Part shown: positions 3,001-58,700 of the stretch, one piece after another
Layout: each line of letters starts with the position of its first letter
Numbering within the stretch: the first letter of the stretch is position 1
Source of the DNA: Liolophura sinensis
Taxonomy: Eukaryota; Mollusca; Polyplacophora; Chitonida; Chitonidae
Assembly (NCBI RefSeq): GCF_032854445.1
Contig: NC_088302.1
Span: forward strand, 46,784,521-46,848,520
DNA: 64,000 nucleotides
Direction of reading: 5' to 3'
Notes under the pieces: generated by a model
What the model was told of the DNA's origin: nothing
The model's input: only the letters and a program-made list of their open reading frames with translations
The model's database searches: none
Made by a program: the position numbers and the translations under genes

Positions 3001-6000
3001 CGCGTACACTTTTAACAACTGAAATGTGCATCATAAAAATAAATACCCCGAATACGTAGGTGATTATGGAGCCGAAAACGGACATTTTTTAACTGTATTT
3101 TTTATTTTTTCCACTTTGGCAGTTTTTTTTTTTAAACAGGCCGTCCCAAAAAAGAAAAATCCTCCATAAAAAGAGACTGGGTGGCAGTTTTTATTTTTTT
3201 TTTACAAGGCGGGAAAAAAAAGAAAACCGCCATGTCCCTTTTACGGTTCCTTATTTACTGCTCCGTAGGCGATCCATTATCAAAATTATCTTTTCTTTTA
3301 TCATTTGTTATTTTTCTAAAATTTACGAGTTGCACTTTCTTGCGATTGTTCTCTGTTCAAAATGATCCACAGTCCAGAAACATGGAATAACGAAATATAA
3401 CCGATGTGATGAAAATAACACCCGACAGTAGGTATAGCCCAAAATCGATGTAGGCATAGGCGAAATAGATACCTCCAGTCTTGTAGTATTTGAGAACTGA
3501 GTATAGTCGATTTCGTTTAAATTTCTCATTTGTTGTCGATTTTTATTGTGATTTTTGTACTTTGGTTTGAATAAGCCCTGCTAATTCACAAATGGGTCAA
3601 ATCGAACAGCAACGATGCTGTAGCATTCCTAAACGTAACTTCCAAGGTGGGCATTCAAAAGTTCAAAAAGGCTTTGGCAAATATGTATAGCCGTTGGAAA
3701 TTAATTTGAAATTAAATCTTTCTCAAAATTTTTTTGTTGGGAACAGAGCATCCTCAAAACTATTTTCAAAAAGAAGGAGACAACATTAATTTGAAATTAA
3801 ATCTTTCTCAAAAAAAATTTTGCTGGGAACAGAGGATCCTCAAAACTATTTTCAAACGGGGGATGGTGTCAAACGATTTACCTTCACATTTGTTCTCATC
3901 TGTATCATTTCTCTGATAACCTCTGTGACACGAGCAAATAGGTCCATTGGCCGAGTCCTCACACATGTGTTCACAACCGCCATTATTCACGGAGCACTTC
4001 GGCCTTTCTGGCATTTGTTTGCATATAACAGACTGGTTTGTCGCCAAGGATGTCTGTTGGTGTAAGATATTTGTCGTCGTCTGTTGGTGAACAGCGTGTG
4101 TAGTCGTTGTCTGTTGCGGTATAGCGTTTGTCGTCGTCGTCTGCTGCTGCTGAACAGCGTTTGTTGTGGTCGTTTGTTGCTGAACAGCATTTGTCGTGGT
4201 GTGTTGAACAGCGTTTGTAGTCGTTGTCTGTTGCTGTACAGCGTTTGTCGTGGTCTGTTGCGGTATAGCGTTTGTCGTCGTCTGCTGCTGTTGAACAGCG
4301 TTTGTTGAGGTCGTTTGTTGCTGAACAGCATTTGTCGTGGTGTGTTGGTGAACAGTGTTTGTAGTCGTTGTCTGTTGGTGTATTGCGTCTGTCGCGGTCT
4401 GTTTCTGTATAGCGTCTGCCGTGGTCTGTTGCTGTATAGCGTTTGTCGTCGTCGTCGTCTGCTGCTGAACAGCATTTGTCGTCGTCTGCTGCTGAACAGC
4501 ATTTGTTGTCGTCTGCTGCTGAACAGCATTTGTCGTCGTCGTTTGTTGCCGAACAGCATTTGTCGTCGTCTGCTGCTGAACAGCATTTGTCGTCGTCTTT
4601 TGAACAGCAGCGTTTGTGGTCGTCTGTTGAACAGCAGCGTTTGTGGTCGTCTGTTGAACAGCAGCGTTTGTGGTTATCTGTTGGACAGCAGCGTTTGTGG
4701 TCGTCTGTTGGACAGCAGCGTTTGTGGTCGTCTGTTGCAGACCAGCGTTTGTGGTTGTCTGTCGAACAGCAGCGTTTGTGGTCGTCTGTTGAACAGCAGT
4801 GTTTGTGGTCGTCTGTTGGACAGCAACGTTTGTGGTTGTCTGTTGGGGAGCAGCATTTGTGGTTGTCTGTTGGGGAGCAGCATTTGTGGTTGTCTGTTGC
4901 AGACCAGCGTTTGTGGTTGTCTGTTGCAGTTTGGGAGCAGCGTTTGTGGTTGTCTGTTGAGGAGCACCATATGTAGCCGTCTGCTGGGAAGCAGCGTTTG
5001 TGGTTGTCTGTTGGACGGCAACATTTGTGGTTGTCTGTTGGGCAACAGCGTTTGTGGTTATCTGTTGAGGAGCAGCATTTGTAGTCGTCTGTTGGGCAGC
5101 AGCATTTGTAGTCGTCTGTTGGGCAGCAGCATTTGTGGTTGTCTGTTGGGGAGCAGCATTTTGTGGTTGTCTGTTGAACAACAGCGTTTGTTGTCGTCTG
5201 TTGCCGGGCAGTGTTTGTGGTTGTGTGGTTGAGCAGCAACGTTCGTTGTTGTCTGTTGCAGAAGAGAATTCGTTGTGGTCTGTTGGTCAGCAGCGTTTGT
5301 TGTTGTTTCAGGATCTTAAACACAAACAATTTTCAAAATGATATTCAGTGAATTTTTAAATGATTTATTCTAGATTTTATTTTAATTCTTAGTTAAAAAT
5401 AAATCACTCAACATCTGGTTACGTTAAAGGACAAGGGAAAAGAGCAGCAGAGGAGGGCGGGGCTATCTCCGCGAAGTAGTGGTAATACAATAAGCCCATC
5501 ACCAGTGAGTTTAATGCCTTAAGCATCATCTGAAAAACCATTTAATATTGCAACTATGGTTACTGTGATTTTTAAAATTGATCTACTCAGTTATATTTCC
5601 ATTACAGATGTAGATGTGTCACTATACACGTATAATCGTCCTGAATGTAGAAACATTACATAAATACAGGAAACGAAAAATGTTTAAGCCAACCAAGTGC
5701 CAGGCACCGCACCGCTACCTAACAAACATTAAAGACGAGACAGTGGGTTATAGATTCGAACTTCAGAAATTTGGAATTCCGGGGGGAAATTTTATTCAGC
5801 TTAACAATGGAAGGAGCGGACATCTAACAGAGTTTAGAGCTGGAGCTATTATCATTAAAGGCAAAAGAAGGAATCCTATACCATCTGACGAGTTGGAAAT
5901 CTTAAACAACTATTTTAAATTTCATGTACTGTTCGACTGCCGCCTGAAAAAAGTGTTGCAGTTATTTTTTTAACATTTATTTAATGTACACAAAGGCTGG

Positions 6001-7242
6001 ATAAAACTGAGGAGCCCAACGTTTTTGAAGTTCTTGAACGGAAAATGTGTCTTTTGTGTCTCCCCAATGATCAGTCAATTTATGTCAACTAAGGTGTTGA
6101 AAATTTCTTAAGTGACTAGTCACATGACACGGTAAGACTTTTTTGGCCACAAAAGATTCGCATAGAAAACCCAGTACACCTGTCGTTGAAAACTCACAGC
6201 CCAGTAATAAACTGAGGAGCTGTACAAACTACAAGACTTTAACTTTCAGCAATTATCCTCATTTGGGTTCCTTTAGAACATAGCTATATTCTTACTTATC
6301 CAAAGAAAACAGTGCCTCGCCTGACATGGACAAGAAAAGGACTTATGGACACCTACAGCTGAATTAGCATTAAAACCTAAAATATCTATTATACTACATT
6401 TGATTAAAATAAATAATAAACCGCTTTACCAGATATAAGACATGCTTCCAGCGCAAATGAAAAGGGGTATGGAAAAGACTGGACTGTAATCTGGTCGTTG
6501 ACTGATGGCGGTGTGCTATAGACATGCGCAAACACTTGTCCGCCAAAGGTGTACGACAATGGGACGTAAGCATTTGGGTTCAGGATAGCCAGTCGATCAC
6601 CAGGGGCCACAGAAACATGGCTGCCTTGAGGTAAACGAACCTGAAACATGAGACAAAAAAAAAAGATAGATGATTGCTTTATTTTTTAAAAGACGTTCTT
6701 TGATGTATTCACTACCAGCCAGAGTTAAAGACATGACGTTACTAAAAAATTCTTTTTTCGAAATATTGTTGTGAAAAATAATAATATAGTCCTCAAAGAA
6801 ATAATATATTTTCCAGCTCGAAACGATTTAAACCTAAATGGTGTTCTTGATGATATTATTCCATAGTACTGCAAGGCAGCGACAGTTTTCCAAACTTCCT
6901 GCAGTACAGTGCGTGTTAGCTGTAAGTGGTGACTTGGCTCATGTGATTCAACCTTTCATAAACGCATCTTACCACATATTCACCCTGGTAGTTTTTCTGA
7001 GCCGGAACCACCGTCTCTGCCAAGAGCGTGAAGACTTTATTGTTGTTTGTGTCCGGTCGGTACACCTGTACTTTGAAGTCTATGATGGCCCCGGGCATGG
7101 TGTTCAGGTGCGTCCGGAAGGCGTGGACGGATTGACCGGTAGTCGTGAACTCCACATCAGTAAGGAAGATGGCGGTAGCATCAGTAGAATTGTAGATGAG
7201 GCCATCCTGAATGGTGTGGCCCAAGCACGTACCCAGGTAATG
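1..7242 (-). CDS. Paralogue C: EGF-like single-pass membrane protein with repeat-expanded stalk (partial)
   Basis: Exons read on the minus strand: 6973-7242 and 6430-6640 (beta-rich domain), 3882-5314 (Thr/Gln/Asn repeat stalk ending in an EGF-like module), 2851-2973 (calcium-binding type EGF, begins DMDEC), 1477-1587 (EGF-like, NEC...CINIPGSYVC), 1-200 (transmembrane segment GFIVWAVILTLILLYTFF and start of tail, running off the window). Every join has GT/AG ends; the small exons match paralogue B in size. The repeat exon holds two extra single bases that break its frame, and the first exon has one base more than its B counterpart, so the locus may be damaged, polymorphic or misassembled. No start codon was found, but a hydrophobic signal-like stretch lies near 7310-7360. 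The role is unknown; the layout suggests a cell-surface adhesion or recognition protein. Confidence 0.72.
408..660 (-). mobile_element. Full-length tRNA-derived SINE
   Basis: Read on the minus strand it starts GGGGCCTCCGTGGCTCAGTC (A-box TGGCTCAGTCGGTTAGCG), then a B-box GAGTTCAAGTCC, a conserved body (GCAACCTGCGGATGGTCGTG, ATAATGCTGGCCGCCGTCGT) and ends TTGAGTACGGCGTAAAACAC plus a short A-rich tail. The intact promoter boxes and tail identify a polymerase III SINE. It is the reference copy for this window. Confidence 0.88.
712..870 (-). mobile_element. 5'-truncated SINE
   Basis: Body and 3' end only; the tRNA head is missing. Lies beside the full-length copy at 408. Confidence 0.8.
1205..1415 (+). 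repeat. 24-bp intronic minisatellite
   Basis: About eight copies of a 24-base unit (CAGCCTGGTAGTATAATTTG plus TCTA) lie in the last intron of paralogue C, some 60 bases past its third EGF exon. No resemblance to the exon end. Confidence 0.85.
2249..2281 (+). repeat. (ATTC)n microsatellite at a short repeat's tail
   Basis: About eight ATTC units follow GGCGTTAAGCCATAATC, the end of a short interspersed element (2150-2250). Confidence 0.85.
2580..2810 (-). repeat. Interspersed repeat family 2, copy 1
   Basis: On the minus strand it carries GTCATATGACGACGAAGGAA, ATAGAGTGCATGTAATGTGC, TTGTTGCAGGGCGATTTCCA and GATACGGGTCAACCAGTCGT. The same words in the same order occur at 39550-39710, so this is a dispersed element; class not identified. 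Confidence 0.72.
3882..5314 (-). CDS. Giant Thr/Gln/Asn repeat stalk exon of paralogue C
   Basis: This 1433-bp exon follows an acceptor at 5315-5316 and ends at a GTAAAT donor after 3882. It encodes about fifty imperfect copies of an eight-residue unit (consensus QQTTTNAA, or NAV with a variable residue), from a 24-bp DNA repeat, then an EGF-like module with six cysteines (CSVNNGGCEHMC...CSCHRGY). Runs of Thr suggest an O-glycosylated mucin-like stalk. For a phase 1-1 exon the length should be divisible by three, but it is two over. The frame moves once near 5225 (CAACCACACAACC where the repeat has CAACAGACAACC) and again near 5158-5162 (one extra T on the plus strand). Only the final frame reads into the EGF. 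The other minus frames are also nearly stop-free, which is a repeat artefact. Confidence 0.7.
5614..5973 (+). CDS. Unrecognised 119-codon open frame antisense within the paralogue C intron
   Basis: An open frame with balanced amino-acid use (for example FGIPGGNFIQLNNGRSGHL and KGKRRNPIPSDELEILNNYF) and no repeats lies between the stalk exon and the beta-domain exon, on the opposite strand. It has no splice context that I can fix, no clear promoter and no recognised domain. It could be a captured coding fragment of a mobile element or pseudogene, or chance. Composition looks less random than neighbouring frames, which is the only support. Confidence 0.2.
   Translation: MCHYTRIIVLNVETLHKYRKRKMFKPTKCQAPHRYLTNIKDETVGYRFELQKFGIPGGNFIQLNNGRSGHLTEFRAGAIIIKGKRRNPIPSDELEILNNYFKFHVLFDCRLKKVLQLFF
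6430..7242 (-). CDS. Unrecognised beta-rich ectodomain of paralogue C (two exons)
   Basis: Exons 6973-7242 and 6430-6640 join in phase 0. They encode about 160 residues with alternating polar/hydrophobic strands, including the blocks IQDGLIYNS, FKVQVYRPDTNNNKVF, QGSHVSVAPGDRLAILNP and YTFGGQVFAHVYSTPP. The same domain in paralogue B is nearly identical. I do not recognise the family; a jelly-roll or galactose-binding-like fold is a guess from strand pattern alone. There is only one conserved cysteine near each end. Confidence 0.65.
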
Positions 7243-12500: not shown

Positions 12501-14220
12501 AGGACGCTAGAAATCGCGATCTCAGACATCACTATAATTACTTTCAACTGTTTGTGCGTCTCTTTAAGAATGGTCTGTGTAAACATGTGTGCAGGGATAC
12601 ATAAATATAATGTATCCGTAAAACATCCATTTGAAAGCAATGAATCACGTTTCCTTACCTGTGGATGCTTCTACTGTAGTCGATGCAGCCGTCGTTGGTT
12701 TTTCTTTGACTTGTGCCGTAGTCGGTGCAGCCGATGTTTTTTGTGCTCCGGCGGATGTTGCACCGGTCACAGTAGTGGAAGGAGCGATCTTGGAAGTGGT
12801 TTGTAACCCGGCGGTCGATTGGTTTTCTTGGGTTGAGGTTTCTAGTGCGTCTAAATAGATAATAAATGTACCAACATGTGAATCGGAATGCCATACAACG
12901 TCACAGATATAAACTACGAATTTTTTCAAAATAAAACGAAAACTTAAAAATGAAATTACACTTTAACCTGTATAGGCCTACTGGTTTTAGGAAGATCTGT
13001 ATATGATTTAAAGGACCATAGCAGCTACTGCTTCTGTATACAGGTTATTTATTTATTTGTTTCATTGGTGTTTAATTTACGCAGTACTCAATAACATTTC
13101 ACTTATACAACGTCGGCCGGAATTATGGTGGGAGGAAACCGGGCAGACCCCGAGGAAACTCACGCCCGTCCGCATGTTGCTGAGACCTTCCACGCGGGTT
13201 ATTGCTCAGAAAATAGTGTTGGTCCAGGAAGAAACCAGTAGATAAATCTTACAGGAGAATACACTTAGCCAAGATCAACATGCCAGGTATTTTTGTGAAG
13301 CATAGAAAGAGCCCTACAGATACTGAGAGAACATACATGATTTGACCCCAAAACTAGAGGTTTTAACTATATAACAGACATTACATACATATACCTAAAT
13401 CCACGCAAAAACTCACCTTGTTCCAGACATGCTTCCAGTGCAAATGAGAAAGGGTATGGAAAAGACTGGACTGTAATCTGGCCGTTGACTGATGGCGGTG
13501 TGCTGTAGACATGCGCAAACACTTGTCCGCCAAAGGTGTAGGACAATGGGACGTAAGCATTTGGGTTCAGGATAGCCAGTCGATCACCAGGGGCCACAGA
13601 AACATGGCTGCCTTGGGGTAAGTTTATCTGTTGAAACAAGTAAAACAAACAACCCATCTTATTTCTCTGAAATTATGATCTGTGTACCTCTATGAAACAG
13701 AGTGAAATTAAATTGCAACTACGATTTGCAATCGGTTTGTAATCAAAACTGCATCACAAGATATAGTAGCAGCTCACACAAACTATACAGAGTGATGAAA
13801 ATAATAACATATTTCTAGGTGTTTGTTTACTTAAATCATAATTAACCTTCGAATTGTAAATCGTGTAATTAAAAAATATTCCCGGAGAACGTTGTTTCTT
13901 TCAGCAAAATAGTATACCTTTAATAAATACTTTAAAAGTAAGTTTTCTTACCACATATTCGCCCTGGTAGTTATTCTGAGCCGGAACCACCGCCTCCGCT
14001 AACAGGGTGAAGACTTTATTGTTGTTAGTGTCCGGTCGGTACACCTGTACTTTGAAATCTGTGATTATCCCAGACATGGTGTTAAGGAACATCCGGAAAG
14101 CGTGAACTGATTGACCGGAAGTCGTGAATTCTACATCAGTGAGAAATATGGAGGCGGCATCAGCAGAACTGTAGATGAGGCCATCCTGGATGGGTTTGCC
14201 CAGGCAAGTACCGGGTAAAG
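9572..14220 (-). CDS. Paralogue B: beta-domain, Thr-rich stalk, three EGF-like modules, transmembrane tail
   Basis: Exons on the minus strand: 13952-14220, 13417-13627 (beta-rich domain), 12659-12850 (Thr/Ala/Ser-rich stalk of 64 codons), 11540-11722 (EGF-like, LPWC...GCSQLC...CACAYGFELD), 11237-11359 (EGF-like, CETNNGFCQHSC), 10825-10929 (EGF-like, DMDEC...CVNMPGSHLC), 9572-9876 (transmembrane FIFFISWLALLTLITIILL and 65-residue tail with stop). These sum to 462 codons plus an unfound N-terminal exon; a hydrophobic stretch near 14285-14335 resembles a signal peptide but its start codon and splice phase do not resolve. The 105-bp exon best ends at a GC donor (10823-10824), which keeps the phase. 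The tail motif CYDGPYNPQEEER is shared with paralogue A. Likely a glycosylated cell-surface protein; ligand unknown. Confidence 0.78.
9958..10077 (-). mobile_element. 5'-truncated SINE in paralogue B last intron
   Basis: Retains GGTTTTCCCAGGGCTCTGCC and the 3' end; close to the transmembrane exon. Confidence 0.8.
10345..10440 (+). repeat. Short interspersed repeat ending CCATAATCATTCATTC
   Basis: CGATATGGCTGAAATATTGC followed by GTGGTGTTAAGCCATAATC matches the element at 2205-2280. A short dispersed repeat with an ATTC tail. Confidence 0.6.
13050..13195 (-). mobile_element. 5'-truncated SINE in paralogue B
   Basis: Body and 3' end, with small insertions, in the intron between the beta-domain and stalk exons. 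Confidence 0.78.
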
Positions 14221-15300
14221 CTAAGGAAAAAAAAAGGATGGTGAAGTTGAAGAAATAATTAGTCGACAGTTTCAATGAAATTCCCCCGACATTCCCCAAG
14301 CAACTACGAAGAAAGCAAGCACAAATAAGAGCCTCGGAATATTGTCTAAGTTCCACGTGACGTCAGTAAGTCGTTGGATATATACAGATATGGTTTACCA
14401 TTTATCATGAAGCCCATTTTGGAAATATACCAGTTCTATGTGTAACTCAGTTATGTAATCACTTGTGTATATCCGCACTAATGAAAACAGGACAAATGAA
14501 AACAGCAATGAAATTTGTTCACGCCATTTATTTAATACATATTAACATGTATTCGCAAAATATTTCTGCAGAAAACATATACACTTTACAGAGAATTGCC
14601 TGAGAGGTCACCCAGGTCGCGTGTTGCCACGGATAAATGTACTTGTTATTTTATAAAACATTGTCTGTGGTCAGCGAGATCTGATGAGTGACATGTTTAC
14701 CAGTAAACACGTGAAATGGAATGCAATCTTTTTGTACAATATTTCGTTGAATAAATATATAAATAAACAAATGCAATCAACTTTACACGTATATAGTTGA
14801 CAGCTGTCCAGTTCAGCTACTGGCAACCAAATGGCCTATTAGTGAATTGGATTACGATCCTTTTCTATAAACCTTTCTTGAATAAATATATAAATAGATA
14901 AATAAATTATATAAATAGGTTAATAAAGTTTACACATATACAGTTGACAGCCATCCAGTGGAAATATTCAACGCACTGGTATAACTTTTCTGTTGGTTTG
15001 CGTGTAGTAAATGCTTTTTGGAATTTGACGAAAAAGCTTTATGAAATAAAATACGTAAATGTACGTTGAGGTTAAATCACTTTCTACTGTAAAGTAAAAC
15101 CTTAAATTACTGTCAATATATAAGAGTTAGTAGGTTATTAAAAAAATGTTTATAAAAAAAAGTAATATCGTATGAACATATCACAATACAAATCACAGTT
15201 TCCACTGCAAAACTATCCACAATCATGAGTGCATTTAATGCAGATTCACGAAATTCTGAACAGCCGATGCTGATTGTTTTGTCCAAGAGGAAAAACCAGT

Positions 15301-25467: not shown

Positions 25468-28400
25468 TCAGTTTTCCTCACATTTAATCATGACCTTAAT
25501 GGCACCATCAGCCCCAGTCCTGGTTGTCTCGAAGGCCTGTAGAGCCTGTTCCAGCGTGAACCTGTGCGTAACTAACGGCTTCACGTTGACCGTGCCAGAC
25601 GCCACCATGGCTAAAGCTGTGGGGTAGCTAACGGGAAACAGAGGAATAAAATTTTAATTAACTTTTAAAAAGACGGACAAAACACTGATTAATTTAAAAT
25701 CGTCGTCCCTATAGGCTTAATTCAGATTTGTCGTGAATTTGATCAAGGTTGTGATCATTCACGATTATGATTTTTGATCATTATTATGAACAACATTAAT
25801 TTATCCCACAACACTTGAATTAATGACTTAATTTACATTACTTGATTCAGTCGCATTATTTCCCAATTAGTGACGTTTACGTCAATGATTCATTATTTCA
25901 CCTGATTCCGACTTAACAAAAATAAAACACATTATTGTTATTGTTTTTTGGGGAGAGGGGGGGGGGGGCGCTCCGTGGCCGAGGGCATTAGCACGCCATC
26001 GCGGCGCAATGACCCAGAAGCCTCCCAGCAATGCGGTCACTGTGAGTTCCTTCAGCTCATGCCGACCTGGGGATGGTCGTAGGCTCCCCCCGGGCTCTAC
26101 CACAATACTGGCGGTATAAGTGAAATATTTCTTGTATAAGATCTCTTGTTTCTCTCATGCAGTTATTTTGTTTGAATTCATGACAAGAGAGTGAGGAATG
26201 GTGATGGACAGGGAAGTGAGGTAATGCTAACCAGTTGACGTAGCGGAAGATACCCCGGATGTCCACCTCTCGTACAGCCGCATCCACCACTGGCAGTTCC
26301 ACCACTGACGGTCCCAATCCGACGAGCACGACACAACCACCCGACGACGTCGCCTAATAAGTAATGTAACACAAGATACATACAGGCCGAAATTTAACAG
26401 TACACGCCTATTTCTTTATAGGCATAATATAGTTAAATTTCTGTCCATAGAGCTTTCGCATATAGGCCAATTTAGCGAGGGGTTCCTTAGTACTGGTTCA
26501 GTTGTATTGATAACCTTTGCAATTTTGAGTTAAGTCAATAACCTAGCGTCCGCGATAACATTATTTTATCACTTATGGCAAGTCTTTTTTTAAAAATTAT
26601 AATCGTGAGAATCTAATAACGTTGACGTTAAAACAAATTTTCGGAACCCGTGGAATGTAAACACCATAATGCAGTTCTAAATTTTACGGAGCCGCAAAAG
26701 TGACATGTTGAAAATAAAATTTTTGGAAGAAAAAAAAATTTGAAGATTAAAAAAAAAAACCTACCAGGTGAAAAAAAATTTGGGGGAAGAGAAAACATTT
26801 TTTTAACCCCAGACTTTGAAAGTCGTTGCCCCGAGTTTAGAAGTCGGGGCACCGGCGTAATGGGCCAATCACAGTTCGTTTGCCATCAAACAGCCAATTT
26901 GGCAGCCACAGACGAGCATCTCTCACTAATAACTACATGTTTTGACTAGGGTCTCACATGAGATAAATAGCTTGTATTTTATATCAAGAACAAGGATGAC
27001 AATGGGCATGATCGCCTACACAAGTCAATTCCAGTCTGTTTAAAACACATATTCTCAGCTGCCCCGTTACAGTTCTTATGAACTTCATGTACATTTGTGC
27101 ATGTACGAAATTGCTTCACGGCCACGACTATAGCTCTACGCAGCAACAGTGACGTACTGAAAGAATAAAAGAGTACACCGATTTAGACCGACTTTTTAAT
27201 GCGGCGGGCAATGCATTTATGTATATCAACAAGGCAGGTTATTCGTAAATATATTTCAAAGAGACATATATGGACTAAATAAAAATAAAATAAAAAAACA
27301 CAGAGTGCAGCCCCGGCCTTAAATAGTATATCTGATTTTTTTCAATCTCAACTGCAACAGCTATATGTGAGACACTATTCGCCTACATGTACTTGATCCA
27401 GCCAGGGTGGAACTAAGCCAAGCTATACGTTAGGGCCAAAGGCCTTATCTTTATGTCACAGACATGTCTGAGGAGGGCTGTGATAGGTTTAAAACTTATG
27501 GTATTATTTGGTTGAGTGTTTACTTTATTAATAATAATCCCACATTGTTGGAGGTTATACTATAAATAGTGTTGGCGTTCCTCGTCGTCTAAATGAACAC
27601 TTTGGGACTGAGGCAGTATAATTCGCAAGCGGCAAAACTTAATTTGCAAAAGCATAATGGCACTGGCGATCGGGCAGAAGCAACCTAAATATAGATGAGA
27701 TTATAGTGTCACCCTAATTATAAATGGTCAATCACGTCGGCACCCCGACTTTTAAACTCGGGGCCCTGACTTGTAAATTCGGGGCTCTGACTTGTAAACT
27801 CGGGGCTCCGACTTTTAAAGACGGGGGTTAATCGAAAATTTCTCTTCCAAAAAAAAATTTTCACCATGTAATTTTCTTTTCTCTTCCCAAATTTGTTTTC
27901 ACCATGTCACTTTTACGGCTCCGTAAAATTATGATCTATGTAAAAATAAAAATGACTTTGTGGAATGGGATCTAGTTTTCTTGAATCGACTCCAACCGTT
28001 ATGGCCAAGGCGATACTAGGTGGCGCTCCACTGCACTCGATGGTAATATTTGGCGCATCTCCCAGTAAGTTCTCAATTTTCTCAGCCAGAGTCTTAGCAT
28101 CTTTGGTGTCCACTAAAACGGTATGATCGGCTCCTAGAGTTTTGGCCACAGCCAAACGACCAGCGTCAATGTCTGGAACATAAATTTACTGATTGACTAC
28201 GCGCATGGCACAGGTAATAGACGACTTAAACTGCTATGAAGGCATGATGTTACTTAAAACATATATATGACTCAGAAACTTTATAATTCCCAGAACTGTT
28301 TTGGACTCCCAAATGCTCACCCTTGCTCACCCTTAATCCCCAAACCGTTCAAAAAGACACTGTAACAACTTAACTTACCAGTCATCAGAACCTTTGACGC

Positions 28401-39835: not shown

Positions 39836-40991
39836 GTTAATTACACAGAAGTTAACTGATAAATAGAAAAAAGGACAGATATGAGTGAAGAAAGATGGTG
39901 TATTCATGCATGTCCCGGCTTGTTAGCAGCTTCATAGCTTTTGCAAGTATCTGATGAGGCATTGCAATTAGTATAACACTAATTATGCTGAGTTAAAATT
40001 GTTCACCACATTAACCTGACTGTTTTCAAACTAAGGCCATATAATTTTGAGTAAAAAAGTGAAAAGTATGAATGGAAATATGCAAGAAGATTAAATGTTT
40101 GGGCATATTCAGTTTTTATGTTTCTTGTCTCCAGCAATTGTACATGTATGTGGCAATGTGGCAGTCACAATGCAAGAGCAGTTTACCATGCTGTGTTGTA
40201 TCGGTAGACCTTCTCTTAAAGTCAGTTGTGATTCTGCATGTACCTGAGACTGCAGACACAGGCAGTTGTGAAGAACAAAAAGAATATGTTATCCCACAGA
40301 CAGAACAATAATACAAATAACTAGCAGAAATTGCCCTATTTTACCAGTTTGTGGATAGTCTGTGTTGATGCTCTCCAGTTTGTCTATAAATTCTTTGTGC
40401 GTAAAAGCTATCCATTAGAAAATCAAACCTTTGAACCTGGAAAGGCAAATTGATACATGAAAGCTGAACAAGGCCTTGGGTTGTAATAGAATTTCTGCTT
40501 CTTAATTTTCCAGTACTACATTTACGATTACAAACTTACAAAAATGTCTGTATACTATTAATCTTACTTTATTTATAAAAGCTCACCAAAGAATTTAAGG
40601 GCTTGAATACATTTAGGTATAAGTTGTAATTGCATGACTATGACTGACCAGTACATACATATAATCTGACAACTTGGTTCCATGGTGTGTTAGCCGCTTA
40701 TCCAAATAGTATCCACCTCTAATACCTGGTTTTCTCCCACCTGGACCAGAGCATTTGTCTGGTATCTGATAATGTGTGGTTTATTTCTCAGGGCCCAACC
40801 ATATGATGCTTTATACTGTCATCACATAAGCGTATGGACTCATGTGTCTATTAAACAAGCGACAGGCCCTATAGCTGTTTCACAATCAGGCAGGATTTTT
40901 AGCTGTCAAATTCCATGTACCTAGTTGTTGATCTGTTTTGTTTATTTCAGATTAGTCTTGAAGTACCCTGATAACAGAATCATCTATCAGG

Positions 40992-42297
40992 ATGCCAAAG
41001 TCAAAGGAGTTTTTATCTTCCAGTGAATCTGACTCTGATGAGGAGGTATGTCAACTTGTTTTGCCGTTGTTCATCTATTGATCAGTCTGCCGACCGGTTC
41101 CATTTACAAATGTATTTATTTGATTGGTGTTTTACGCAATAATCAAGAATATTTCACTTACATGAAGGGTGCCAGTATTATGGTGGGAGGACCTGGACAA
41201 AGCCTACATGAAACCCACAACCACCCGCAGGTTGCTAGCTGTCGTCATGTAGGTGAAATATTCTTGTGTACAGTGTAAAAATCAAATAAACAAATAAATA
41301 AAACATTGAAGGCCATGTGTCTTGCACCACTGTGATGTCTATATCTGTATGTATCACACATAAGGAAGGTCATGGGTAACTGTTATGTGTATAACTGTAT
41401 ATATCATACGTGGGAAAGGTCATGAGTAACTATGATATCTACATGTATATCAGTATGAATCACACGTGGGAAAGGTCATGAGTAACTATGATATCTACAT
41501 GTATATCAGTATGAATCACACATGGGAAAGGTCATGAGTAACTATGATATCTACATGTATATCAGTATGAATCACACGTGGGAAAGGTCATGAGTAACTA
41601 TGATATCTACATGTATATCAGTATGAATCACACATGGGAAAGGTCATGGGTAACTGTTATGTGTATATCTATATATCACATATGAGAAAGGTCACGGGTA
41701 ACTATATGTACTGTATATCAGTATGAATCACACGTGGGAAAGGTCATGGGTAACTATGATGTGTATATCTGTATCTATCACACATGGGAAAGATCATGGG
41801 TAATTTGTGGTTTCTTCCACCCATAAATCTGCCAGCCATTGTATATTTGTACAAGTATGAAATTTAACGACAATGAACTAAATAGCTATCAGCCATGCTT
41901 TGATTTATGTATTTGATTGATTGGTGCTTTCGTGGTTAGTTACTAGCTGTGAGAACTAGCTCCCTCTTGTGATAATACAAGCTGGCTGAGCCAATTTGCA
42001 CTTTATTGAGCTATCAGATGTACTCCTGAGTTCGTTCAGTTGTGAATTACCCGCTGTCTGAACCAACTTTTTCAGCTGTCATTTACCATCTGTCTGAATG
42101 AACTTTTTTTGTCAGTCAACATCTATCTGTATGAGCTTATTCGTTGGTCAGTAAATAGCTAATTAATTGAACAACTAATCCACCTGCCAATCACCAGTTG
42201 CCCCAGCCAGCTCTTTTGACGTGTAATATTTCAGCTGCCTGACCAACTGGTCTGCTATATATATATAGCACCAATGATAAACTGCTATGAAATGATG

Positions 42298-42328
<31 letters not shown>

Positions 42329-45300
42329 GGTCACAGATTAAAACCTTGTAGCATACCATTGCTTCATAGTTAAGGTTCTGCCACTTTAAAACCAAGTACG
42401 GGTATTTGTTAGCAGTTTTACTTTATTATGCAGTAATTCAAGTTTCAGTCCTGTTTTCAGCAACCAAAACCTAAAAAGAAGAAAGTTGAAAAGCCGAAAA
42501 AAGAAAAGAAGGAAGAGGAAGTTAAAGATAGCTCTGGTGTTAGAGGGAAAAATGGAGAAATGATGTTTCAGGTGAGTATTCTATAGACTCTGGTAAATTA
42601 AAAATGGAGAAATGATGTTTCAGGTGAGTGTTCTATAGGCTCTGGTAAATGAAAAAGGGAGAAATGAGGTTTCAGGTTAGTATTATATAGACTCTGGTAA
42701 ATGAAAAATGAAGAAATGATGTTTCAGGCGAGTATTCTATAGACTCTGGTAAATGAAAAATGGAGAAATGATGTTCCAGGTGAGTATTCTATGAACTCTG
42801 GTAAATGAAAAATGGAGAAATGATGTTCCAGGTGAGTATTCTATGAACTCTGGTAATGAAAAATGAAGAAATGATGTTTCAGGCGAGTATTCTATAGACT
42901 CTGGTAAATGAAAAAGGGAGAAATGAGGTTTCAGGTGAGTCTTCTATAGACTCTGATAAATGAAAAATAGGGAAATCATGTTTCAGATGAGTGTTCTATA
43001 GACTGTGGTAAATGAAAAATGGAGAAATGATGTTTCAGGTGAGTATTCTGTAGACTGTGGTAAATGAAAAATGGATAAATGGTGTTTCATATGAGTATTC
43101 TATAGTCTCTGGTAAATGAAAAATGGATAAATGAGGTTTCAGGTTAGTCTTCTATGGACTCTGGTAAATGAAAAATGGAGAAATGATGTTCCAGGTGAGT
43201 ATTCTATAGACTCTGGTAAATAAAACATGGAGAGATGATGTTCCAGGTGAGTATTCTATAGACTCTGGTAAATAAAACATGGAGAGATGATGTTCCAGTT
43301 GAGTATTCTATAGACATTGGTAAATAAAACATGGAGAAATGATGTTCCAGATGAGTATTCTATAGACTGTGGTAAATGAAAAATGGAGAAATGATGTTCC
43401 AGGTGAGTATTCTATAGGCTCTGGTAAATAAAACATGGAGAAATGATGTTCCAGGTGAGTATTCTATAGACTGTGGTAAATGAAAAATGGAGAAATGATG
43501 TTCCAGGTGAGTATTCTATAGACTCTGGTAAATGAACAATGGAGAAATGATGTTCCAGGTGAATATTTTATAGACTCTGGTAAATGAACAATGGAGAAAT
43601 GATGTTCCAGGTGAGTGTTCTATAGACTGTGGTAAATAAAACATGGAGAAATGATGTTCCAGGTGAGTATTCTATTGGCTCTGGTAAATAAAACATGGAG
43701 AAATGAGGTTCCAGGTGAGTATTCTATAGACTGTGGTAAATGAAAAATGGAGAAATGATGTTCCAGGTGAGTATTCTATAGACTGTGGTAAATGAACAAT
43801 GGAGAAATGAGGTTTCAGGTTAGTATTCTATAGACTGTGGTAAATGAAAAATGGAGAAATCATGTTTCAGATGAGTATTGTATAGATTCTGGTAAATGAA
43901 CAATGGAGAAATGATGTTCCAGGTGAGTATTCTATAGACTCTGGTAAATAAAACATGGAGAAATGATGTTCCAGGTGAGTATTCTATAGACTCTGGTAAA
44001 TAAAACATGGAGAGATGATGTTCCAGGTGAGTATTCTATAGACATTGGTAAATAAAACATGGAGAAATGATGTTCCAGGTGAGTATTCTATAGACTGTGG
44101 TAAATGAAAAATGGAGAAATGATGTTCCAGGTGAGTATTCTATAGGCTCTGGTAAATAAAACATGGAGAAATGATGTTCCAGGTGAGTATTCTATAGACT
44201 GTGGTAAATGAAAAATGGAGAAATGATGTTCCAGGTGAGTATTCTATAGACTCTGGTAAATGAACAATGGAGAAATGATGTTCCAGGTGAGTGTTCTATA
44301 GACTGTGGTAAATAAAACATGGAGAGATGATGTTCCAGGTGAGTATTCTATAGACTCTGGTAAATAAAACATGGAGAAATGATGTTCCAGGTGAGTATTC
44401 TATAGACTGTGGTAAATGAAAAATGGAGAAATGATGTTCCAGGTGAGTATTCTATAGACTGTGGTAAATGAAAAATGGAGAAATGATGTTCCAGGTGAGT
44501 ATTCTATAGACTCTGGTAAATAAAACATGGAGAAATGATGTTCCAGGTGAGTATTCTATAGACTGTGGTAAATGAACAATGGAGAAATGATGTTCCAGGT
44601 GAGTATTCTATAGACTGTGGTAAATAAAACATGGAGAAATGATGTTCCAGGTGAGTATTCTATAGACTGTGGTAAATAAAACATGGAGAAATGATGTTTC
44701 AGGTGAGTGTTCTATAGGCTCTGGTAAATAAAAAATGGAGAAATGAGGTTTCAGGTGAGTATTCTATAGACTCTGGTAAATAAAACATGGAGAAATGAGG
44801 TTCCAGGTGAGTATTCTATAGACTCTGGTAAATAAAACATGGAGAAATGATGTGTGTGTCCTTCGGCTACTTCTCTGCAAATACTCCTTGGTCACTGTTC
44901 TGTATGCAGGGCATCATGATATAATTCAAAACACTAAAAAAAGTCAGTGTATGTTTGTTACCCCGCCTCGTTACATTTTTAAACCACCTTGTGCTAAGTT
45001 ATGTGTCATCACATTAGACTGTGCACTCGTACATATATTTGGGTCATATTCTCTCCAGCGAGTTTACCGACAATTGTTATATTGAATACCAGAGAAAGAA
45101 ATTGTGTATTCATGATGACATGCTTCTGTGGAAATTTTCTATGCGTTCCACCTCTGTCAAAAAGTCTTTTTTAAGGCATACTGCTGTACAGTTGTCACTT
45201 ATGGTCTGTGTTTCCCCTATCAATAATTTTCCATCATTTGAGGACGTTTTGCATAAAGCTATCTTTAGATTCAAGGAGAGGATCTATTCTAGCAGTAACC

Positions 45301-48071
45301 ATTTATTGAGGACCATTTGCTCATCAGATGTTATGTTTGTCTCTTCAATGCATTTCATATGGAATGAACTGTTATACTGAATTATGTAAGGAAAAGACTA
45401 TTCAGCAACTTTTGCAAATTTCTTTTCTATTCTTCTCTGTTATGTATTATGTTACTAGTATTTATGAGCCATGTGTCTGAAAAAAAGTTAAATATTAATG
45501 CTAAATTACACCCAGGTTCAAGCTTGCGGAGTCTGTTAAGCTTAGGTCAAGGAATCTGTGTTACTAACACAGTGGGGTCCTGCCCTGGCAGCTTTATAGA
45601 TGTCACTGCACTTATATATGCTGTTGACTTTAATTGATCATTTAGCGTTTTTCTAATAGAAAAATGCACAGTTTAGCACAAGTGCAGTGTATGGTTCAGA
45701 TTTCTTAGGAAGGTAGGTGTACATGGATTCTCAGCCTCTGCTCATTGTTTTCATTTGTTTATTAATTTATTCAGTAACATATTTGATTTTCCAGCAGAAT
45801 GTCATCCCAAAATCTCACCTCAAATCACCTTTCTAAAATCAATAGAACTCTCAGAATAAGGAAAAATGGGCAAGTTAGTTGTCAGTGAAATTTATGGTCA
45901 TTTTGGGTACTCTTGGGTACAGCAAAAAACAGCAATCAAATAAATAAATCATTGTTCATGTGACCTTAGGGCCAGTGAGCAGTTGACAGCGTTCATGAGG
46001 AAGTTTGCTCAGTCTTAAACCACTTGTCTTCCACTGATATGGTATACATATACACGTCACAAATGGGAAGGTTCTTCTGTAATGTTCTACCTGCCACTCA
46101 CCTTTCTACCTTACGTAAAAGTGACATCTCGTGTGGACAGCCTTGAGGTGTAGTATCAAATAACAAACGAACAAATAAACGAATAAATAAATGCTAACTG
46201 AAGTGTGATTCGGACTTAACAACCCAAGATTTATTTATTTATTTGATTGGTTGTTTACACGGTATTCAGGAATATTTTACTTATAAGGCAACTGCCAGCA
46301 TTATGATGGGAGGAAACCGGGCGAAACTCATGACCATTCGCATGTTGCTGGCAGGCCTTAACATGTATGGCTGGAGAGGAAGCTAGCATGAGCTGGACTT
46401 AGCAACCATCTGAGGTTTCCATCCTGTTTGGTACAACTTGCTCTGGTCAGTATTTCACTGGTTCAATATTAGTGATTTAAAGTACTTGGAATTATGTTTA
46501 TAAATGTAAACTTTGCTTTGACCTATGTTTTCAGCTGTCACGTATGCGCTATGCCACTGTCAGTGAGTTCAGGGGTAAAGTCATGGTGAGCATTAGGGAG
46601 TATTATGAAGCAGAGGGAGAACTCAGACCTGGTAAAAAAGGTAAGCAAAGACTAGGCTGTAAGGTCTTATAATACGTAGTCCTGAGATCGGTGAGCCTTG
46701 TTCCCAGCTTACCTTTCACATTAACCTCTCTGAATTGTTATATTATCTAATTAGGAACTCAATCCTGTCGCCTGCGCTGTCCTCAATGGTCCCAATGTTG
46801 TACACCACAAAAAGAGGTGTCCGGTGATCTTAAGACCATAACATCGCAAATAACTGAAATGTAATCGACACACACATCTACTCGGACAGGTTGACAACTT
46901 CAGAAACTGCCATTTTCGAATTACGTGTTGCTATGGTGGACTCGGCTGCTCTTCCCATAATTAAGATCACCGCCTTTTTTGACCATAATTGAATACATAG
47001 TTTCTGTGTGTTATTAACACACAAATTAAGACTCCCCAATAATTTGTTAATCGCCCATTAGATATAGTTCCAAGCAAAAATTTGTTAAGATGAAACTCTT
47101 AACAACAGGGAAGAAAATGTGCGATATATCTGTGGAATGGATAACAGAAGAATGGTAGAAGTGAAAAGGTTTCACTACAAGAGCGAAAGGGGTTCACAAA
47201 AACTTGAAAGTGGATCCAGATATAACTACAAAGTAACAACTTGAAAGTGGATCCAGATATAACTACAAAGTAACAACTTGAAAGTGGATCCAGATATGAC
47301 TACAAAGTAACAACTTGAAAGTGGGTCCAGATATAACTACAAAGTAACAACTTGAAAGTGGATCCAGATATAACTATCAAGTAACATACTTTGTGTAGAT
47401 TTGTAAATGCATTTTGAGACCATGACTTTTGGGGGCATAAACATCAAAGAACCTTTCTGTTCTGCTGTTTTAGCAAGGAACCATAACTTTTTTGGGCATA
47501 AACATTAAAGAACCAGGATCTGTGCCAAATTCTGTTCTGCTGTTTTTACAAGAGACCATAACTATTCTGGGCATAAACATCAAAGAGCCAGGATTTTGCA
47601 GAATGTTTTTTTCTGGTGTTTTAACTTTTCTGGGCATAAACATGAAAAAAACAGAATTTTGTGGAGTGTTTTGATGGGCATAAACATCAAAGAACCAGGA
47701 TATTGTTACCATTATGCTATGCAGTGAAGAAATTTTTAAATTTAGACATTTGACATCAAATATTTTGTTTTCCTTGAATAGGTTTATTATTATTTTATAG
47801 AAATGTATTTCTACCAATTGTTTTTTGTAAGTTTTTAGCACTACTATTGGCATTGACTACATTGTCATTGGGGTTATTGACCGAGTGTACATGACAGTTA
47901 TATCTTCATGGATAGATGCATGCAAATTACAAAATGATGTTTCAGATTGATGTTTTTGACAGATTTTCAGTTAAATCTCACTATGTTTCAGGTATATCAT
48001 TATCTCTGGAACAGTGGAACAAGCTGAAAGAATTGACGGAGGAAATAGATGATGAAATCAAAACCCACTGA
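40992..48071 (+). CDS. SUB1: Transcriptional coactivator PC4/SUB1
   Basis: Coding exons 40992-41045, 42461-42571, 46535-46640 and 47992-48071 total 351 bp (116 aa; human is 127). Residues 1-18 (MPKSKEFLSSSESDSDEE) form the Ser/Asp-rich phosphorylation segment, 19-45 the Lys-rich region, and about 48-116 the single-stranded DNA binding dimer domain (FRGKVMVSIREYY, LRPGKKGISLSLEQW). The protein is a nuclear DNA-binding cofactor for RNA polymerase II activation and DNA repair. The first coding exon starts after an acceptor at 40949-40950, with 41 untranslated bases, so a non-coding first exon lies upstream, possibly ending at the GTAAGA donor after 38863. The 4 kb second coding intron is dominated by a 52-bp minisatellite copied from the end of the preceding exon, followed by a LINE fragment and a SINE. 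Confidence 0.94.
41113..41285 (-). mobile_element. 5'-truncated SINE in SUB1
   Basis: Body and 3' end; at 41243-41300 a short opposite-oriented 3' end (GTGAAATATTCTTGTGTACA, then AAATAAACAAAT) follows, giving a small inverted pair. Confidence 0.78.
41325..41810 (+). repeat. 56-bp minisatellite in SUB1 first coding intron
   Basis: About eight units containing GGGAAAGGTCATGAGTAACT and CATGTATATCAGTATGAATC; exact 56-base spacing at 41471 and 41527. The central four copies are nearly identical; edge copies are shorter and diverged. Confidence 0.9.
42301..42328 (+). repeat. Poly-T tract
   Basis: About 28 consecutive T in the SUB1 intron, likely the tail of an old minus-strand retroposed insert. 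Confidence 0.8.
42545..44850 (+). repeat. 52-bp minisatellite copied from SUB1 exon 3 end and its 5' splice site
   Basis: The array has a clean 52-bp period (for example TTCCAGGTGAG at 43501 and again at 43553) and about 44 units by span. Each unit holds AAATGGAGAAATGATGTTYC, then AG, then GTGAGTATTC, then an intronic tail. The first unit is the real exon end, so the array starts at the exon/intron border. Most later units carry TTCCAG where the exon has TTTCAG, and donors are mostly GTGAGT. Some units vary (GTTAGT, ATGAGT). Confidence 0.95.
44850..45390 (+). pseudogene. Degenerate non-LTR retrotransposon reverse transcriptase fragment
   Basis: Two overlapping frames carry pieces of the C-terminal part of a LINE reverse transcriptase: KKSQCMFVTPPRY followed, after a frame shift near 45020-45030, by HSYIYLGHILSSEF and YQRKKLCIHDDMLLWKFSM. 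The YLGHIL and RRKL-like blocks are typical of the thumb region of animal LINE polymerases. The copy is truncated and frameshifted, so inactive. It starts directly after the 52-bp array in SUB1 intron. Confidence 0.6.
46228..46405 (-). mobile_element. SINE body in SUB1 second intron
   Basis: 3' end and body up to GCATGAGCTGGACTT; the tRNA head is lost. Lies about 130 bases before the third coding exon. Confidence 0.8.
47201..47395 (+). repeat. 37-bp minisatellite in SUB1 last intron
   Basis: Five copies of AACTTGAAAGTGGATCCAGA plus TATAACTACAAAGTAAC, spaced 37 bases (47201, 47238 and on), nearly identical and so probably young. Confidence 0.9.
47425..47705 (+). repeat. Irregular minisatellite in SUB1 last intron
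   Basis: Five copies of GGGCATAAACATCAAAGAAC-type words with CCAGGAT and TTTTGC spacers, 50-75 bases apart. Not related to the adjacent 37-bp array. Confidence 0.8.
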
Positions 48072-53324: not shown

Positions 53325-53735
53325 AAAGGTAGCCATATAAATACCTACATACATGTATAAGGCAGCCACTTAAATACCTACATACATGTATAAAGTAGCC
53401 ATATAAATACCTACGTACATGTATAAGGCAGCCACATAAATACCTACATACATGTATAAGGCAGCCACTTAAATACCTACATGTACATACATGTATAAGG
53501 TAGAAATATAAATACCTACATACATGTATAAGGCAGCCACATAAATACCTACATACATGCATAAGGCAGCCACATAAATACCTACATACATTCATAACGC
53601 AGCCACTTAAATACCTACATACATGTATAAGGCAGCCACATAAACACCTACATTATGTACAAGGCAGCCACTTACATACCTACATACATGTATAACGCAG
53701 CCACATAAATACCTACATACATGCACAACCTTTAG
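53325..53735 (+). repeat. About 33-bp minisatellite
   Basis: A dozen units of ACCTACATACATGTATAAGG plus CAGCCACATAAAT; intergenic. It changes sharply into the next array near 53725. Confidence 0.9.
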
Positions 53736-54425
53736 CATTCAGTCAAACATGTACATACAGTCTCAGTGATATCAGCACAACCTCTAGCATTCAGCCAAAC
53801 ATGTACACACAGTCTCAGTGATATCAGCACAACCTCTAGCATTCAGCCAAACATGTACATACAGTCTCAGTGATATCAGCACAATCTCTAGCATTCAGCC
53901 AAACATGTACATAAACTCAGTGTTATCCACACAACCTCTAGCATTCAGCCAAACATGTACACACAGTCTCAGTGTTATCTGCACAACCTCTAGCATTCAG
54001 TCAAACATGTACACACAGTCTCAGTGATAACTGCACAACCTCAAGCATTCAGCCAAACATATACATACAGTCTCAGTGATATCTGCACAACCTCTAGCAT
54101 TCAGTCAAACATGTACACACAGTGTCAGTGATATCTGCACAACCTCTAGCATTCAGTCAAACATGTACATACAGTCTCAGTGATATCTGCACAACCTCTA
54201 GCATTCAGTCAAACATGTACATACAGTCTCAGTGATATCTGCACAACCTCTAGCATTCAGTCAAACATGTACACACAGTCTCAGTGATATCTGCACAACC
54301 TCTAGCATTCAGTCAAACATGTACATACAGTCTCAGTGATATCTGCACAACCTCTAGCATTCAGTCAAACATGTACACACAGTGTCAGTGATAGCTGTAC
54401 AACTCGATTGCATTCAGTCATATAC
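53725..54425 (+). repeat. 52-bp intergenic minisatellite
   Basis: About thirteen units with TCTCAGTGATATCTGCACAA, CCTCTAGCATTCAGTCAAAC and ATGTACACACAG. Same period as the SUB1 array but unrelated in sequence. Confidence 0.9.
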
Positions 54426-55726: not shown

Positions 55727-58700
55727 TTATTCATCTGGGTAGATTTCAAAGTCCAGTGAGCTGTTCTCTAGGTATGAGCTGAGAGGTGTAAACACCCGAG
55801 TGTGGTGCGCCTTGCTGGTTGGGCTGGTTGGACTGAATGGGAATGAGGAGGTCATCACACTGGAGTTGAGAAGCGAAGCTGTGTTAGCATTGTCAACATG
55901 ATCAAAACTGAAGATGAGGTCACTTCGGGGTCGGGTTAGTCGACCACGCTTTTCCTTGTCCTTCAGCAGTGTCTGCATCTTGTGCTGTAGACACAGAATT
56001 TCTTCCACCAGCAGACACTGCTGCATGTAACGTGCTGGAGACCCACCTCCAATTATCTCTGCTGGCTCAAGCCAGCGCAGATAGCACTGTGACCACAGGC
56101 GAATCAGAGGTGTTGAACAGTCAGGTTTCAAGACTACATGTTTATAATGCAAATTTGGCACATTTTCATACAGTTTGTGCAACTTACGAGAGTAAATCTG
56201 GCTTAGATTTGCCCCACTTGAGTGTCCGTCTCCATTTACTATTACTTTGCCACCACCTTTTCCAAACCGAGGCTTGGTACTGTTTCAGTTGGGAGTAAAC
56301 ATCGGCTTTGTTCAGGTACAGGGGGTTGTTGAAGAAAGACCTGTATTCTTTGCCAAATTGGAAGTCCCACTTCCATACAGAGGGCAGGTATATGGGTGGA
56401 ACAGTAGTCTTGGTCATGCCCACAAGAAGGCTCTTCTGTTGATGGGGGCTGTTAAAGAGGAAGGTTTCAAACAGTCCCATGTAGATGCTGTCCCAGACAG
56501 TGGTCAGATATGTCTCTGTGAAGGCGAATGAGGATGGGAATTGCTGCAGCATCTGCCAGACACAGTCCAGGAAAAGGAGGAACACTGGAGACTACAACAC
56601 AACAGGGCAACCATGATTACATAGTGGTTTGATTGAAGTTTTGCTATGTGTTCACAAAACGATTCTAGTCACACAAAGAGAGTCAGGCTTACATGGAACT
56701 GTCTTGAGTACATGTACCTCGCACACTTAGTGATGCAATACTGCAAATGGTTCTGAATGTTTTCTGTTGACAAATTATCTGGATTTCTGGATCATTGTCT
56801 TTATCAGCACTTTTGCACCATTTTGTTTTCCAAAATATGGTCCGTCACAAACACAGCCCAAAATGAAATAACAAGAAAAAAAAAAAAATTTGCAATAAAT
56901 ATTATAGGAATTACTTATTTCTAGGGCTTGGAAAAGAAGTGAAAACAGAGTGCCAGATGCATTTGCTGAACACCATATCAATAAGATACCATAAACTATT
57001 TAATGAGGTGCAGCCCTGCACTGTTACTCCATGTTTCTCACCTCCAGGCTATCAGCTGATCTTATGAGCCCACAGCGCTGCTGGAAGGGATGAGCCATCG
57101 CCACCCACTCCTTTTGTATGAGGAGCTGGAAGCCCTCCAGGGTACGAGAATTAGGGTCTAACATCAGCTGTACCAGGGAGGACACCACACAGCTGAAGTC
57201 TCGACCACCCGCCTCTGAAACAACAAGAGTCACCGTCAAGGTCAAGCTGTGTCTGGCTTGTCGGAACAACAAGTCATAGTCCAGGTCAAGTTGTGTCTGA
57301 AATGTAGGGACAACACGAGTCATCAAGGTCAGGGTCAAGTTGTGTGTAAGGTGTAGGGACAATAAGAGTCATCGTCAAGGTGAGGTGTAGGGACAGCAAG
57401 AGTCATTGTCAAGGTCAAGTTGTGTCTGAGGTGTACTACACGAAGCAGTTCCTAACTGCTCTGATCTCATCTGCACAGTGGGAATTCCTGCACACTGCAA
57501 TTTAACTGCTGAGCAAAATCCAAAGTTTCTGGTTAATATTTCAAAATGAAAATACACTTTGATCTAAAATTTGCATTTGTGTGTGTGGAAAGTGGTAGGA
57601 GTCGGGAATGGTGGATAGAATTAGAATAAATTATGAGTTTGAAAAACTGAAAATGTAATCACTCCATGATGATGGGCCATACCATTGACGGAAGAAGTCA
57701 GCATTACTCTGAAAATTATAATCTAGAAATACTGCATTGTGATCATCTTATAACCAATAGGCCAGATTCCAAGAAAATATAAAAATTACATAAAGTTCAA
57801 ATGAAAAAGGGTGAAAAGTTAGTTGTAATTATAGTTTAAAATATTTTTCAACTTTGTTTTAAGGAGAAAAGAAACTTGAAAATAATGTTTTCATGGTGGG
57901 TATTTAGAACCACCTCTTGGTATATATCGTCTTTGCGTAACAGTGTATTAAATGAGGATGTAACACATGTTAAATACATGGTATATATGTATTTGCACTA
58001 GAATTTGGCCTTTTCAGCTCAAAAATGTGTTCAACCTGAATTTTTATCATATTTACATTTTTAATATATTCACAAATATTACCATAATTCAGATTAAATG
58101 CAGGTGTCTGGCTATGAACAATAAATTTATTAGACATTTATCACATCCTTATATTGAAAATTGTTATTCAAAGACAATAAATACCAAAAGGTTGTTCAAA
58201 ATACCCACCATACAGAAATATTTTCCAATACCCTTTAATCCTGAAAGAAAAAATCTAAAAAAATATTAAAGACCATATTCGCAAACAAGTTTTCCTGCTC
58301 TTTCATCTGATTTCGGCATCATTTTTATGTTTTCTTCTCCTTCAAAGGTTATGCAGGTTACAGTAAAATGTGCATGAGAGATTAAAAAAGAGAGACTCTT
58401 GTTATTATCAGTGATGGAGAGATTAACTCCAGTTGCATTACCCTTCAATATCACAGTTCTCTCATTTTCCTCCATTTCTTTTGTTGCACTGACAGCTAAC
58501 AGCAGACAGGACTGGACGCTCTGTAACCACTTGGTGTTCTCAAGGGAGCTAAACCAGGTCAGGTCTGTGCTCCAGAAGTCTTTTTCAGAATCTGCAGGAT
58601 AATTTATTGCATTTTAAAATCAAAGAACATTTGAAATAAATGATAAATGTATCTTTAACTTTTTAAAATAAGATTTAAAATAAGAAGCTTATAAGCATTA

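Follow-up and report, generated by a model that had tools for sequence, protein, structure and literature searches.

In the 64,000-nt stretch of DNA that was analysed (the window), a gene encoding SUB1/PC4 carries, at the end of its second coding exon, a tandem array of 44 units of 52 bp in which the exon end, the 5′ splice site and the adjoining start of the intron are repeated together. The array is probably a minisatellite of the type termed mirages, close to neutral, with the first donor normally used.

The SUB1/PC4 reading frame is intact. Four coding exons, with splice joints inferred from homology, frame and consensus, fit in phase and translate to 116 amino acids when the first donor is used. 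The first coding stretch, MPKSKEFLSSSESDSDEE, is at 40992..41045 on the + strand, as placed by sequence, translation and phases, and its exon begins at about 40951, just after TTTCAG. The second coding exon (42461..42571, + strand; QPKPKK...GEMMFQ) is 111 nt long and of phase 0 at both ends. The third (46535..46640, + strand) contains the start of the PC4 domain, and the last coding stretch (47992..48071, + strand) runs to the stop codon. A query of 73 residues, taken from the second and third coding exons, matches Pfam PC4 with an E value of 1.3e-15 and six PDB PC4/Sub1 sequences, the best with an E value of 1.7e-11. The original prediction had named 42461-42571 coding exon 3; with the start codon at 40992 it is the second coding exon, and with a 5′ non-coding exon included in the count it ranks third among the exons.

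Tandem Repeats Finder gives the array as positions 42547-44853, with a period of 52, 44.4 copies, 91% matches and a score of 3662. As it runs from 25 bp inside the exon into the intron, the repeat unit spans the exon/intron boundary. When cut at the splice junction, the array consists of 44 head-to-tail units (42572..44853, + strand) that occupy 58% of the intron at 42572-46534. The native 5′ splice site, GTGAGT at 42572..42577 (+ strand), belongs to unit 1 and is the first of the 44 junctions. The exon end copied by the units comprises 25 bp (42547..42571, + strand). This sequence, GAAAAATGGAGAAATGATGTTTCAG, has one other exact copy, at 43014, and the remaining units differ from it by a few changes. 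Unit 6 is 51 bp long and unit 44 breaks off ahead of its CAG. Thus about 44 copies of a 52-bp unit, formed from the last 24 or so exon bases, the donor and the intron start, with the real donor at 42572, had been correctly described from the sequence, the exon part being 25 bp.

A homology of the intron part of the unit with a region further into the exon (ATAG.CTCTGG) is no more than suggestive: depending on which of three scoring schemes is used, 45, 134 or 412 of 1000 shuffles match it, and 115, 147 or 429 out of 1000 stretches drawn at random from the window do as well, in the same order of schemes. A search of the whole window for stray copies of the unit gave nothing better than a match of 14 bp at 47932-47945 (E 0.029), which is taken as chance.

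Most junctions of the array retain a donor like the native one. The sequence CAG|GTGAGT is found at 33 of the 44 junctions, the native one included, and 11 depart from it. The junction GT is intact in 37 units and is otherwise AT (four units), GC (two) or TT (one); AG precedes the junction in 43 units. The donors other than GTGAGT are GTTAGT (3), GTGAAT (1), GCGAGT (2), ATGAGT (4) and TTGAGT (1). The later donors had been described as equally good. This applies to the 32 of 43 later units that match the native 9-mer and fails for the other 11. Pairing with the U1 5′ end was calculated with an 11-nt general metazoan sequence. The predicted energy is -14.1 kcal/mol in 32 units, the native one included (31 of the 43 later units share this value), and -12.2 kcal/mol in one more. 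Junctions at or below -12 kcal/mol therefore number 33 of 44, compared with 1 of 290 other GTs in the SUB1 introns, the best of which has -12.2 kcal/mol. The donors of the preceding and following SUB1 exons pair at -6.9 and -9.5 kcal/mol.

Some units also carry the hexamer AATAAA. The hexamer is found in 18 units, always 24 bases into the unit, and its density on the + strand is 7.9 per kb in the array versus 1.5 per kb elsewhere in the window. In all 17 cases with a donor downstream, the hexamer ends 23 bases ahead of the next junction. This fixed spacing, together with the concentration of strong predicted U1 sites, might suggest telescripting, whereby U1 bound to the array shields the intron from premature cleavage at the AATAAA sequences. 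Such a shielding role is highly improbable. The U1 sites and the AATAAA are both to be expected once a unit of this sequence is amplified, the hexamers belong to one unit subtype, neither feature shows a sign of maintenance, and the U1 end used in the calculation is the general metazoan sequence. Also very doubtful is a broader reading, in which the 32 sites that exceed any of the 290 other GTs (a 33rd ties with the best of these) form an intronic U1 platform whose copy number sets how full-length SUB1 transcripts are balanced against those from later donors and those cleaved in the intron.

Use of a donor other than the first would have a uniform consequence. By translation, the outcome is identical for all 43 later junctions, namely a 59-residue product that ends in VSIL and is devoid of the PC4 domain; the predicted stop after GTG AGT ATT CTA, with truncation before the DNA-binding domain, is thus found for every later junction. 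It could be supposed that the array acts as a decoy, whereby part of the splicing goes to later donors, early-stop transcripts result and copy number sets SUB1 output. The uniform truncation and the native 9-mer in 32 of the 43 later units fit this supposition. In addition, a paper by Lievers from 2001 is said, by its title, to associate the human CBS VNTR with reduced CBS enzyme activity, and by likeness of build this counts against neutrality. A decoy is nevertheless unlikely, since the donors of the SUB1 array are without clear conservation and amphioxus mirages are reported, in the available text of two papers, not to disturb splicing (PMC3087553; PMC3902484).

Another possibility is that the units correct themselves. 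A transcript spliced at donor k would undergo a second splicing step, from donor 1 to the AG at the end of unit k-1, normal mRNA would be restored, and the array would represent raw material for intron gain according to the Rogers model. Most units do run from GT to AG, as the junction counts above indicate. In 43 contexts, however, the 18 positions upstream of the AGs hold 3-6 pyrimidines, compared with 11-13 upstream of four SUB1 acceptors, and as judged from these sequences the AGs are poor acceptors. At 52 nt, the units are moreover close to the minimum size of animal introns. Gain of introns through AGGT duplication has been described (PMC4974935) and is suggested for globin mirages (PMC3087553), as far as the available text of these papers goes, yet self-correction, taken jointly with intron gain, is decidedly improbable for the SUB1 array. 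With respect to recursive (ratchet) splicing, the AG|GT junction is present and a strong pyrimidine tract before the AG is not; the pyrimidine-poor tract speaks against both recursive splicing and the use of units as introns.

The pattern of differences between units points to the way in which the array has grown. There are 32 distinct sequences among the 43 full units. Mean pairwise differences fall from 6.2 in units 1-12 to 4.8 in units 13-26 and 3.0 in units 27-43, so that the units are most divergent beside the exon and least divergent at the far (3′) end. A block of seven units, 13-19 (43195..43558, + strand), is the source or the copy of units 27-33 (43923..44286, + strand) at an offset of 14 units; the paired units differ at 1, 0, 1, 1, 0, 0 and 0 positions, and no run of this length appeared when unit order was permuted 500 times. 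This is how an ordinary expanding minisatellite usually looks when turnover takes place at one end and the exon border is left alone.

The diversity of the units also bears on whether the copy number is an artefact of assembly. The array was seen in a single assembly, and in the draft genome of amphioxus one of the globin mirages appeared to be misassembled, according to the available text of PMC3087553. The 32 distinct units among 43, the divergence gradient and the inexact block duplication are unlike an invented array, which leaves an artefact extremely improbable, even if the exact number of 44 may be off.

No clear sign of selective maintenance is seen in the splice positions of the units. 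The mean number of non-consensus units is 1.3 at the nine splice positions versus 2.8 at the other 43 positions, and splice-position conservation ranks 7 of 52 among circular shifts, which leaves room for a possible weak constraint. The share of variable positions in the splice block is unremarkable, 32 of 52 shifts being as low or lower. Of the 42 internal junctions, 31 have an intact 9-bp donor block; eight of the 52 blocks of equal length, the donor block included, reach 31, and the mean is 23.9.

A neutral mirage may have formed as follows. Tandem duplication over the SUB1 exon/intron boundary would have created a second donor, and slippage or unequal exchange would have expanded the array to 44 copies, with the most recent turnover, as the unit pattern indicates, towards its far (3′) end. 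The first donor would normally be spliced, presumably for three reasons: with it the exon, only 111 nt long, is complete; it precedes the others in transcription; and the frame is maintained. Transcripts from later donors, all of which reach the same early stop when translated, would probably be destroyed.

Several observations count for this neutral mirage: the intact SUB1 frame with the first donor, the divergence gradient, the block duplication, and the 11 of 44 junctions that depart from CAG|GTGAGT. The richness of the window in minisatellites counts for it as well; tandem repeats, minisatellites included, comprise about 14% of the window in 25 regions, which were merged by hand from 41 Tandem Repeats Finder rows. 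On the other side, exclusive use of the first donor is not self-evident, as most later donors pair with U1 like the native one and lie in native exon context. SR proteins are able to favour the intron-proximal of two donors, which also counts against such exclusive use; a 1990 paper by Krainer and a paper on DOK7 and SRSF1 are reportedly connected with this property. Circumstantial evidence leans towards a strict preference for the first site over a tuning array, because the amphioxus genes of the same structure are reportedly spliced regularly and the splice positions of the SUB1 units are not clearly better kept. Variation of the SUB1 copy number between individuals is plausible, as the CBS and mirage arrays vary.

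Other features were observed in the window. A second array of 52-bp period is at 53722-54420. SUB1 (40951-48071) adjoins a myotubularin-related gene with a 3-PAP domain (55727-57214); human SUB1 and MTMR12 are adjacent on 5p13, and the pairing may represent an old microsynteny. A minisatellite at 57215-57415 (- strand) abuts TTTCAG, probably the acceptor of a myotubularin-related exon whose inferred limits are about 57042-57214. It comprises two Tandem Repeats Finder rows, 57220-57381 with a period of 49 and 3.5 copies, and 57349-57415 with a period of 34 and 2 copies. Some of its units end, by eye, in acceptor-like letters, e.g. CTACATTTCAG, and it may be an acceptor-side boundary array whose unit is without exon letters. 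Enrichment of arrays at splice junctions was not found in the window: two of eight junctions, the eighth being this probable MTMR acceptor, which was picked after its array was noticed, are in an array or at most 8 bp from one, and at least two were so placed in 7112 of 20000 random placements of 25 arrays.

A dispersed element of about 120-130 bp is present at 41106-41300, followed there by an inverted copy of its own end, and partial copies with about 68-80% identity are found at 12 other places in the window; it may resemble a repeat common in molluscs and brachiopods, a likeness that would count against amphioxus as the host. A 492-amino-acid open frame at 3811-5286 (- strand) displays repeats of the TTTNA-QQ type, probably a coding minisatellite, and then an EGF-like domain (FXa_inhibition, E 1.4e-8). 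At 27916-28185 (- strand) there is a sorbitol dehydrogenase-like exon piece (best PDB match E 4e-9; Pfam ADH_zinc_N), and the open frame 26057-26353 looks by eye like a further such piece. Coding-like stretches at 6404-7242 and 13367-14362 (- strand) are nearly identical by eye, which suggests tandem gene duplication; two scanned pieces of the 6404-7242 copy gave no Pfam match at E 0.01.

The SUB1 array is a naturally occurring series of 5′ splice sites that are nearly identical, compete with one another and lie in native exon context. Should RNA show the first donor alone in use, the array would reveal how strictly the choice among equal donors is governed by position; use of later donors would make it a repeat by which the output of a general transcription cofactor is set. 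A host outside the cephalochordates would indicate a wider animal range for mirages than that found reported.

The term mirages refers to minisatellite-like repeats over intron/exon boundaries in the Adh3 and globin genes of amphioxus. Their units measure 10-160 bp, and many but not all of them carry the AG/GT signals (PMC3087553). In the available text of the same paper, the BflGb6 mirage has six and three units in two haplotypes, the Adh3 mirage shows somatic instability, and RT-PCR suggests regular splicing of Adh3 and globin transcripts, and the copies are named as potential cryptic sites. Further amphioxus mirages are found in TnC and PGBD5, with 60-bp and 108-bp units and, for PGBD5, two to seven copies (PMC3902484). 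The SUB1 array resembles these cases (Adh3, BflGb6/BflGb9, TnC, PGBD5), at least as the available text describes them, in its boundary-spanning unit and in a splice signal present in many units but not all. A homogenised interior with border units left out is also seen, clearly at the exon end only. The gene differs, the described mirage cases are cephalochordate, and the copy number is 44 compared with six and three in BflGb6 and two to seven in PGBD5.

Tandem AG|GT junctions that form ready-made GT...AG modules are shared with introns gained by AGGT tandem duplication, for which the available text of PMC4974935 gives the Rogers model, ATP2A1, 24-bp repeats in fission yeast and potato RdRp. 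In contrast to these, the SUB1 duplication is at an existing donor and extends into an existing intron, which removes the need for a new one; the AGs of the array are also without a pyrimidine tract. The available portion of a paper on an earthworm metallothionein with intronic minisatellites (PMC12783039) contains no boundary array that we could find.

The human CBS VNTR has a published association with enzyme activity, going by the Lievers title, whereas none is known for the SUB1 array. Designated c.1444_1467+7(16_21), this VNTR has 31 bp per unit and 16-21 copies and varies between people, and a further CBS duplication, of 68 bp and at a different intron/exon junction, still yields normal mRNA, as stated in the available text of PMC2630376. 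From its published name, the CBS unit would consist of the last 24 exon bases and the first seven intron bases. Exon end and intron start are repeated in tandem as in SUB1, but the unit is shorter (31 bp versus 52 bp) and the copies are fewer. An array built on an exon/intron boundary is an architecture already described in amphioxus mirages and the human CBS VNTR, and the SUB1 array is a further, many-copy case, with more copies than those amphioxus and CBS cases whose numbers can be read from the available text.
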